Origin: Deltaproteobacteria bacterium HGW-Deltaproteobacteria-13
Lineage (GTDB): Bacteria; Desulfobacterota; Syntrophia; Syntrophales; Smithellaceae
NCBI GenBank assembly: GCA_002840555.1
Contig: PHBJ01000011.1
Span: forward strand, 1 to 64,000
Reading direction: 5' to 3'
Length of the DNA: 64,000 nt
The translations under genes were made by a program, and so were the position numbers. Positions 8,392-10,192 of the stretch are shown in pieces. Below the pieces are notes generated by a model. That model was not told the DNA's origin. It ran no database searches and saw only the letters and a program-made list of their open reading frames with translations. Within the stretch, counting starts at the first letter, position 1, and every line of letters begins with the position of its first letter.

Positions 8392-9975
8392 TTATTTTAC
8401 GGCAAGATGGTCCTTGCTGAGTTTATATTCGATACTATCAACAAGGGCCTGCCAGCTGGCCTCAATAATATTTTCGGAAACACCGATCGTGCTCCAGAGT
8501 TCTTTTTCATCCGTGGAATCCAGAAGAACTCTGACGCCGGCCGCCGTTCCTTCCGAACCTTCCAGCGTACGCACCTTGAAATCAACCAGACGCATTTCCT
8601 TGATTTGCGGATAAAATTTCGTGAGCGCTTTGCGCAAGGCGTGATCCAAAGCATTGACCGGACCGTTTCCTTCCGCGGCGGTCAGTTCTTCTTCACCGGC
8701 AACAGATATTTTTATTGTCGCCTGAGAAAGGCAGGGATTATTCTCCGTGCGCGAGGTAACGACACTGAAGCACTCCAATGCAAACGGCTCAACAAACTCA
8801 CCGATTGCTTTCTTAATCAGCAGAGAAAGTGAGCCGTCGGCGGCGTCAAACTGAAAACCGCGGTCTTCCATCAGCTTGACTTCTCGGACGATCTTTTTAC
8901 TGACAGCGTCGTCCTTGGCCAGGTCAATGCCCAGCTCTTTTGCCTTATATTCAACATTGCTCTTCCCCGACAAATCCGAAACCAAAACGCGACGGTGATT
9001 GCCCACCAGTTCCGGTTGAATATGCTCATAGGCCATCGAGTTTTTAACGACGGCGCTGACATGCACGCCGCCCTTGTGAGCAAATGCGCTGCGGCCCACA
9101 AAAGGACGCGCGTTCAGCGGCGGAACATTGGCAACATCGCTGACAAAATGGGAAAGATTGGTGAGCTGCCGGATGGATTCCGGCGGCAAACAATTTTTGC
9201 CGAGCTTCAACTGCAAATTGGCAATCAGGGAAATCAAGTCGGCGTTGCCGCATCTTTCGCCGTAGCCATTGATGGTTCCCTGAATCATTTTCACTCCTTC
9301 CCGCACGGCGGCGATCGAATTGGCCACAGCCAGACCGCCGTCATTATGTGTGTGAATCGCGACAAGATCCAGGGGAATGGAAGAAGAAATTTTTCTTACG
9401 ATATCACTGATCTCATGGGGCAGGCAGCCGCCGTTGGTGTCGCAAAGCACAATGACATCCACGCCGGCGGCAAGCGCCGTTTTTACAACTCGGATTGTGT
9501 AGCGGGGATTGTTTTTGTAGCCATCGAAAAAATGCTCAGCGTCAAAAAGAACTTCCTTGCCCATCGATTTCAGATACCCGATCGAGTCCGCGATCATCGC
9601 CAGATTCTCGTTCAGGTCGGTTTTAAGAATTTCGGTCACGTGCAAATCCCACGATTTCCCGACAATAGCGGCAGCGGGTGTTCCCGCTTTTATCAATGCC
9701 TTTAAATTTGGACATGATGCCGGCTTTGTATGCGGTTTGCGCGTGCTGCCGAAGGCCGTCAGGCGCGAATTTTTAAATTCAATGTTTTTAGCCATCTCAA
9801 AAAAACGAATATCTTTAGGATTGGAACCCGGCCAGCCGCCCTCGATATAATCAAAATGGGCGTCATCAAGACGCTGGGCGATGCGTAATTTTTCTTCCGC
9901 CGAAAAATTGGTTTGCTCCCCCTGTGTGCCATCCCTTAAAGTTGTGTCGTACACCAGTACTTTGTTTTTTGTCAT
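8392..9975 (-). CDS. cimA: (R)-citramalate synthase
   Basis: Condenses pyruvate and acetyl-CoA to (R)-citramalate, the first step of the threonine-independent isoleucine route. It has 527 aa, the normal size for the long CimA type. The N-terminal DRE-TIM domain starts with VYDTTLRDGTQGEQTNFS and includes EGGWPGSNPKD and HTHNDGGLAVANS (metal-binding histidines). The C-terminal allosteric domain (about residues 400-527) ends the protein. The ATG has a GAGGAG ribosome site. Homologs include 2-isopropylmalate and homocitrate synthases, but the sequence pattern and the isoleucine-rich leader peptide upstream both favour citramalate synthase. Expression is probably controlled by transcription attenuation. 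Confidence 0.95.
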   Translation of the reverse strand: MTKNKVLVYDTTLRDGTQGEQTNFSAEEKLRIAQRLDDAHFDYIEGGWPGSNPKDIRFFEMAKNIEFKNSRLTAFGSTRKPHTKPASCPNLKALIKAGTPAAAIVGKSWDLHVTEILKTDLNENLAMIADSIGYLKSMGKEVLFDAEHFFDGYKNNPRYTIRVVKTALAAGVDVIVLCDTNGGCLPHEISDIVRKISSSIPLDLVAIHTHNDGGLAVANSIAAVREGVKMIQGTINGYGERCGNADLISLIANLQLKLGKNCLPPESIRQLTNLSHFVSDVANVPPLNARPFVGRSAFAHKGGVHVSAVVKNSMAYEHIQPELVGNHRRVLVSDLSGKSNVEYKAKELGIDLAKDDAVSKKIVREVKLMEDRGFQFDAADGSLSLLIKKAIGEFVEPFALECFSVVTSRTENNPCLSQATIKISVAGEEELTAAEGNGPVNALDHALRKALTKFYPQIKEMRLVDFKVRTLEGSEGTAAGVRVLLDSTDEKELWSTIGVSENIIEASWQALVDSIEYKLSKDHLAVK

Positions 9976-9990
9976 TTTCTCCTCGCTTTC

Positions 9991-10028
9991 AAAAAAAAAC
10001 CGCTGCCGGGTTTGCCTGGCAGCGGTTT
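9991..10028 (-). terminator. Intrinsic terminator of the cimA attenuator
   Basis: On the minus strand the stem AAACCGCTGCC / GGCAGCGGTTT (11 bp) is followed by an unbroken run of Ts that continues the right arm. It lies between the isoleucine-rich leader peptide and cimA, about 10 bp before the cimA ribosome site. A terminator directly in front of the gene it would silence is the hallmark of attenuation. The left arm CCGCTGCCAGGC can instead pair with GCCCGGTCGCGG in the last leader codons (10 of 12 pairs, one a G-U), giving an antiterminator. Confidence 0.85.
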
Positions 10029-10054
10029 GAGATTTTGCTTATTTTGAGTTGATA

Positions 10055-10132
10055 CTATTCCGCGACCGGGCCTCCTATGAAGAAGCTAATTATAATGTTG
10101 CTAATTATTATGGTGCGAATGTCTTTTGTCAT
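10055..10132 (-). CDS. Isoleucine-rich leader peptide of cimA (25 aa)
   Basis: Short reading frame encoding 25 residues, of which 8 are isoleucine: two runs of three (residues 8-10 and 13-15) plus residues 5 and 19. Four of the isoleucine codons are the rare ATA. There is no leucine and only one valine. The start is ATG with a weak AGG about 10 nt before it; an in-frame TTG 8 codons earlier exists but lies nearly at the predicted transcript start. The stop (TAG) lies 26 nt before the terminator stem. A ribosome stalled at the second Ile run would leave the antiterminator segment (codons 20-25) free. A ribosome reaching the stop would cover it and let the terminator form. The peptide itself probably has no function. 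Confidence 0.85.
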   Translation of the reverse strand: MTKDIRTIIISNIIISFFIGGPVAE

Positions 10133-10163
10133 TATAACATTAACCTATAGCCAATTTGGTTGA

Positions 10164-10192
10164 ATAATAGTTTTATAATGGCGTTTTGTCAA
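10164..10192 (-). promoter_or_regulatory. Sigma-70 type promoter of the cimA attenuator
   Basis: TTGACA (10192-10187), 17-nt spacer, TATTAT (10169-10164). This is a consensus -35 with optimal spacing and a near-consensus -10. Transcription should begin near 10157, about 25 nt before the leader peptide ATG, giving a leader RNA of roughly 180 nt before cimA. Confidence 0.8.

Follow-up and report, generated by a model that had tools for sequence, protein, structure and literature searches.

The locus raises the question of whether the short, isoleucine-rich reading frame that precedes the citramalate synthase gene cimA ties expression of this gene to the supply of isoleucine. The locus lies on the minus strand of the window, i.e., the whole stretch of 64,000 nucleotides analysed here. 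Judged from sequence and its comparison, the region is very probably a ribosome-mediated transcription attenuator, through which cimA expression would depend on charged isoleucine tRNA. The analysis directly established the anatomy of the locus and its conservation, showed that the two stems covary and exclude each other, and defined how a ribosome would mask the leader. The following features are distinguished:

10164 to 10192, minus strand: promoter of the sigma-70 type, with TTGACA at 10192-10187, a 17-nt spacer, and TATTAT at 10169-10164 (11 of 12 consensus matches).
10055 to 10132, minus strand: leader reading frame MTKDIRTIIISNIIISFFIGGPVAE, 25 codons and a stop codon, with isoleucine at residues 5, 8-10, 13-15, and 19.
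10070 to 10086, minus strand: segment 1 hairpin GCTTCTT-CAT-AGGAGGC, which abuts segment 2; a possible pause or competitor hairpin (folding).
10060 to 10071, minus strand: segment 2, the left arm of the antiterminator, within the last leader codons (folding, covariation, masking).
10014 to 10025, minus strand: segment 3, the shared arm, partner of segment 2 in the antiterminator or of segment 4 in the terminator (folding, covariation).
9991 to 10028, minus strand: intrinsic terminator with the stem 10028-10015/10010-9997 and a T-run ending at 9991; the right arm of the stem is segment 4 (folding, covariation).
9979 to 9984, minus strand: GAGGAG, the ribosome site of cimA (sequence).
8392 to 9975, minus strand: cimA, citramalate synthase, 527 aa (TIGR00977, 730.1 bits, cut-off 450).

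The TIGR00977 score supports the assignment as cimA made in the earlier note, and the genome contains a separate leuA with a leucine-rich leader. CimA scores below every LeuA model cut-off shown, the best LeuA model reaching 288.8 bits (cut-off 517). The gene upstream of the leader encodes a cation transporter on the opposite strand; due to this divergent arrangement, the terminator ends no other gene. The gene after cimA encodes an L-threonylcarbamoyladenylate synthase, and thus cimA heads no branched-chain operon here.

All elements described in the earlier note were recovered on the minus strand within the coordinates given there. The promoter TTGACA-17-TATTAT was found where it had been placed, and the 25-codon frame contains the eight isoleucine codons, the two III runs, and the four ATA codons attributed to it. 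With one valine and no leucine codon, its description as nearly isoleucine-only is apt. ATA, which had been called rare, is indeed the least used isoleucine codon in 43 reading frames of the window, but still accounts for 18.4%. The frame lacks a strong ribosome site. The terminator and its T-run are present as proposed, while the stem length of 11 bp was a slight undercount, as 13 of 14 positions pair around a 4-base loop. The antiterminator, formed by 10071-10060 with 10025-10014, comprises 10 pairs and two single mismatches. The proposal that the left arm of the terminator can alternatively pair with the last leader codons, so that the two structures exclude each other, is corroborated: segment 3 is common to both stems, and both covary.

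Over the 300 bases upstream of the cimA match, the isoleucine score of the leader was matched by only 2 of 5000 dinucleotide shuffles. The fold of the full leader was as good in none of 200 shuffles (z -2.94), while 48 of 200 shuffles folded as well as the antiterminator alone, which is thus unexceptional. Four promoter-like sites were found in 2 kb, compared to a shuffle mean of 3.6. Because the statistics of the locus alone match those of shuffles for promoter and antiterminator, support for these two elements comes from comparison. A simple terminator scan did not report the terminator of the cimA leader, probably because the uninterrupted stem closes a 10-base loop, which is above the limit of the scan.

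The comparison was performed in the order to which the genome belongs, probably Syntrophales. The three nearest named relatives (70-85% identity) are all deltaproteobacterial, one of them bearing the name Syntrophaceae. With an E-value limit of 1e-100, cimA was found in 126 of 149 genomes, including the genome studied here. From 122 genomes, 124 upstream regions were taken, G001 and G106 contributing two each; G011, G112, G116, and G146, whose matches do not include the gene start, and two further places in G126 were omitted. The start of cimA was estimated in G013 and G025; the estimate for G025 was wrong, and its stretch therefore stops before the terminator. A frame was regarded as isoleucine-rich if it reached at least 5 isoleucines in 12 codons.

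The isoleucine-rich short frame is present in 98 of the 124 regions, the terminator motif in 119, and both in 96. Conservation of the isoleucine codons in relatives had been named in the earlier note as a point on which the reading would stand or fall, and relatives lacking the frame or the terminator as evidence against it; these counts favour the attenuator. Within the same family, the frame and the terminator are each found in 46 of 47 regions, and both in 45. The terminator motif occurred in 19 of 2480 shuffles. When only the last 300 bases are considered, 102 of 120 sufficiently long regions reach the isoleucine threshold, compared to 3.0% of 4800 shuffles; this count differs from 98 of 124 because the stretch and the set differ. 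An antisense-strand control for isoleucine runs gave 34 of 120. Shuffles were preferred to this control because runs of ATT/AAT probably read as isoleucine on both strands. Pooled, the 98 isoleucine-rich leaders contain 27.3% isoleucine, 5.7% leucine, and 4.4% valine. The threshold is missed by 26 of the 124 regions, among them G034 and G080, which are cut by contig ends. In the families f6 (1 of 7 regions passing) and f14 (6 of 15), isoleucine runs are weak or absent, and most regions still carry the terminator.

In the same family, the codons at positions -17, -16, -12, and -11 from the leader end specify isoleucine in all 46 leaders, and ATA, ATT, and ATC are all used at each of these positions. 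A fixed isoleucine with wobbling codons indicates selection on the amino acid. The residues between the isoleucine triplets are variable, and the last isoleucine codon, at the position of residue 19, is isoleucine in 31 of 46 leaders. Across families, the isoleucine runs shift in number and place, with isoleucine kept in most. In 39 of 46 same-family regions, including the region studied here, a scan restricted to 110-230 bases before the terminator located TTGACA with a 17-nt spacer at a distance of 131-144 nt. The seven exceptions comprise five poorer sites (G003, G012, G001_L116, G016, and G022) and two cut regions (G034 and G049). In some same-family genomes, e.g., at L126, L030, L136, and L144, approximately 60-250 extra bases are located between terminator and cimA. 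By eye, these bases are alike between genomes and partly palindromic, resembling a small repeat element.

For the analysis of the stems, a strict terminator motif was required, which is present in 116 of the 124 regions. Thinning at 85% identity and removal of the cut region G034 resulted in 77 aligned leaders, whose conserved parts are the two rival stems and the isoleucine codons. The covariation that had been looked for in both stems is present in each. In the antiterminator, 89.2% of the cells are paired, with 65 double-change cells compared to 21.1 in shuffles; in the terminator, 93.9% are paired, with 67 compared to 18.6. None of 500 shuffles reached the number of double-change cells for either stem, although related sequences can beat all shuffles. 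The number of pairs with a double change was reached by 6 of 500 shuffles for the antiterminator and by 15 for the terminator, while the number of pair types did not exceed shuffles, being reached by 178 and 476 of 500, respectively. When the stems are slid, paired cells drop to 22-65% and 18-52%, and slides by three columns retain 33-47 double-change cells.

The covariation signal lies largely on the branch to the own family. Single positions also deviate: 33 of 75 leaders do not form the antiterminator pair 130/180, and 33 of 77 do not form the terminator pair 184/197. Because segment 3 is shared by the two stems, substitutions come as triplets. In most of the own family, segments 2/3/4 at one site read G-C combined with G, A or T; outside this family, G-C-G occurs in a single leader of each of f2g28, f2g52, and f10g37, with A-T or G-T elsewhere. 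Swapping segment 2 between clades weakens the duplex to -11.9 and -12.8 kcal/mol, compared to -18.8 and -15.2 kcal/mol within clades. At the locus studied here, the segment 2:3 duplex has -16.9 kcal/mol and the terminator -21.9 kcal/mol, and the weakest segment 2:3 duplex among the leaders has -1.4 kcal/mol.

The position of the ribosome was modelled by masking folds for codons 5 to 26, computed before the right terminator arm is present and with the footprint edge assumed 9 nt past the A codon. A ribosome whose A site holds one of codons 5 to 17, a range that includes both isoleucine triplets, leaves all 10 pairs of the antiterminator able to form (-14.6 to -18.9 kcal/mol); within either triplet, the 10 pairs have -14.6 to -18.3 kcal/mol. 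At Ile19, 6 of 10 pairs remain (-4.5 kcal/mol), and from codon 21 through the stop codon there are none. In this model geometry, the isoleucine triplets are well placed as control codons. Ile19 is probably not a control codon, as only 6 of 10 pairs remain and its position is less conserved than the triplet positions (31 compared to 46 of 46 leaders). Once the whole leader with the right arm is present, every masking case tested yields the terminator as the best fold. The switch must therefore be kinetic, with the antiterminator winning by timing. Known attenuators are likewise decided by timing.

From this arrangement we infer where transcription starts, that the leader is translated, that the choice between the stems is kinetic, and that the switch responds to isoleucine. 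Based on the promoter, transcription would start approximately 25 bases before the leader ATG, and a ribosome would trail the polymerase through the leader. If isoleucyl-tRNA is scarce, the ribosome would stall at one of the two isoleucine triplets, leaving segment 2 free. Free segment 2 would pair with segment 3 while segment 4 has yet to be transcribed, no terminator would form, and cimA would be transcribed. If isoleucyl-tRNA is plentiful, the ribosome would reach the stop codon and cover segment 2, and segments 3 and 4 would form the terminator.

The role of segment 1 is less defined. On average, its region folds more stably than shuffles, with a mean z of -1.03 over 77 leaders compared to +0.33 over 70 for an upstream control, but a fixed 1:2 helix derived from leaders of other families does not covary. 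Local hairpins occur in relatives, but no single covarying helix. The hairpin at 10086-10070 may pause the polymerase or hold segment 2. A fixed 1:2 helix of CATAATTAGGC with GCCTGATNNTG was considered attractive, as the isoleucine codons would fall inside segment 1. It was rejected, with 61.5% of cells paired over the 77 leaders and covariation not above shuffles, although outside the own family 27 of 52 leaders form at least 8 of its 11 pairs.

Other explanations for an isoleucine-rich frame in front of a terminator were considered. The leader peptide could arrest its own ribosome, the isoleucine runs being part of the arrest peptide and isoleucine or some other small molecule serving as co-factor. 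Such a nascent-chain arrest would agree with the C-terminal GG-L-V-V-E-like ending, which is fairly conserved as a peptide within the own family. This ending, however, coincides with segment 2, the pairing of which covaries, and the residues near the isoleucine runs and at the ending differ between families (GGLVVE, RPENTGA, GGLMMG), making an arrest peptide very unlikely. The isoleucine runs would also suit a membrane helix, and the terminator might then be a plain attenuating or transcript-protecting element behind a real hydrophobic membrane micropeptide, with no amino-acid sensing. A functional micropeptide is difficult to reconcile with a leader length and N-terminus that vary widely while the distance between isoleucine run and terminator stays similar. 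The covarying antiterminator and the leuA and ilvB leaders of the same genome, each rich in the amino acids of its own pathway, likewise speak against this explanation, which is regarded as extremely improbable.

The frame could also be incidental if a tRNA or metabolite binds the RNA directly, as in T-boxes or riboswitches, or if a protein exerts control. T-boxes control branched-chain genes in Firmicutes. Searches with Rfam covariance models gave no match at gathering score in the cimA locus or three other loci, and four matches below it around the cimA leader. One of these overlaps is with the L10 leader, a protein-bound family, and is weak (21.6 bits, gathering score 44). As the conserved parts of the alignment are the two rival stems and the isoleucine codons, control of this kind is hardly credible, and attenuation by a ribosome reading isoleucine codons is the preferred explanation.

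The genome contains further leaders in front of branched-chain genes. leuA (712 bits on TIGR00973) is followed by leuC, leuD, and leuB, with leuD just below one cut-off and above another. Its leader MPDRAKKQILAINLLPLILGLALLRLLLKAARPSFLGHH (contig C22 of G000, L002:1185-1304) contains 12 leucine, 3 isoleucine, and no valine codons among 39, and is followed by a terminator-like hairpin with a T-run. ilvB is followed by ilvN, ilvC, and ilvD, and its leader MFLKVKDRGVIQILTKVLVLVVVVLTGSAALYL (contig C18 of G000, L244, 256 to 155 bases before the match) contains 8 valine, 7 leucine, and 2 isoleucine codons among 33; behind it lies a terminator-like hairpin whose T-run is broken. The three branches headed by cimA, leuA, and ilvB are thus preceded by three differently tuned leaders, of which those of leuA and ilvB were examined in this genome alone. 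Regarding the threonine route, the best threonine-dehydratase-like protein of the genome scores below every cut-off shown, and hence cimA may be the main route to isoleucine in this genome.

An RNA model comprising segment 2 and the terminator was built, with 63 of the 77 leaders as input. Within the genome studied here, it scores 86.5 bits at cimA; the next matches are one of 33 bits on C20, the reverse strand of the cimA hairpin, and four weaker ones. The five other places read (L209, L211-L214) carry no isoleucine-rich leader. Across the phylum, the model matches 70 of 395 genomes at E values up to 0.01, namely 16 listed members of the order, partly by construction because several supplied training leaders, and 54 others. 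All 14 loci returned for genomes outside the order were read. Five of them precede cimA (L226, L229, L234, L239, and L242), another five precede ilvD, three leuA, and one ilvB. The five cimA leaders contain 3-11 isoleucine, 7-11 leucine, and 2-6 valine codons. leuA is the next gene after cimA in all five genomes, and leuC is shown in the two tested. As leaders of such cimA-leuA operons carry isoleucine, leucine, and valine, the mixture of sensor codons corresponds to the operon. Where the scaffold precedes ilvD in other families of the phylum (L225, L227, L231, L232, and L243), the leaders contain isoleucine, valine, and leucine.

From other families of the phylum, 70 cimA genes were chosen among the best-scoring ones listed and thus not at random. 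The terminator of the scaffold was found in none of them, and an isoleucine frame above the threshold in three. These three frames presumably represent the end of an aspartate kinase. On balance, one scaffold, with segment 2 resembling CCTGATAATGG and segment 3 being CCGTTATCAGG, appears somewhat more likely than otherwise to have spread or been kept across the phylum before branched-chain operons. Its sensor codons would have been exchanged: isoleucine alone at stand-alone cimA, isoleucine, leucine, and valine at cimA-leuA, and mixes of leucine, valine, and isoleucine at leuA, ilvB, and ilvD. A shared scaffold with changing codons offers a way to ask whether attenuators are copied between operons and retuned by their codons.

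Among named genomes, 8 of 80 cimA loci reach 5 isoleucines in 12 codons. Five are deltaproteobacterial (L035, L036, L037, L039, and L043), one is from Acidobacteriota (L060), and two are from other phyla (L086 and L109). At L060, in a record named Acidobacteriota, the isoleucine-rich frame is located 246 to 108 bases upstream of the cimA match and is accompanied, by eye, by a different strong hairpin. This leader is perhaps an independent or transferred attenuator. L111 belongs to a metagenome-assembled genome titled Klebsiella pneumoniae, the cimA of which is 55% identical to the cimA studied here, and the label looks doubtful. According to the search table, one stop codon is located inside the cimA match in each of G244, G173, G282, G308, G497, G418, and G241.

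The mechanism proposed here is classical. Its target cimA, the isoleucine-only sensor, the order-wide conservation, and the common scaffold were not found in the literature searched. The search revealed no described attenuator of cimA, although an earlier mention is possible, as some comparative papers were outside its reach; citramalate and cimA are absent from PMC2965389. If the proposal is correct, the citramalate route to isoleucine would be under direct feedback by isoleucyl-tRNA in bacteria known largely from uncultured genomes. An isoleucine leader also helps to distinguish cimA from leuA, and the order-wide set of leaders with its natural covariation is suited to reporter work.

In the enteric attenuators of ilvGMEDA, ilvBN, and leu, the leader peptide contains codons for the end product, terminator and antiterminator are alternative structures, and the position of the ribosome decides between them. 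The cimA leader shares the end-product codons and the alternative terminator and antiterminator, and the decision by ribosome position is proposed for it here. It differs from the enteric systems in its target cimA, its isoleucine-only sensor (8 isoleucine, no leucine, and 1 valine codon), and the location of segment 2 within the last leader codons; the likeness is one of mechanism, and no sequence kinship is claimed. The three enteric operons are named as attenuated in PMC1183508. For Actinobacteria, candidate leader peptides of ilvB are presented in PMC1262725 as short frames with runs of isoleucine, valine, and leucine codons beside terminators. The same paper cites that substitution of the candidate codons was without effect for ilvB of Streptomyces coelicolor. 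These candidates resemble the cimA leader in combining a short frame with branched-chain codon runs, a terminator, and a branched-chain gene, but concern another gene in another phylum and contain mixed codons. A leucine-rich attenuator peptide of branched-chain synthesis in Staphylococcus aureus is described in PMC5794164. Both this leader and the cimA leader are thus rich in one branched-chain amino acid, which is leucine in the case of S. aureus, a member of another phylum. The leuA and ilvB leaders of the own genome share with the cimA leader a frame followed by a terminator-like hairpin, and according to their folds the leader end can pair with the left part of the hairpin. Unlike the cimA leader, they have other stem sequences and are not found by the cimA RNA model.
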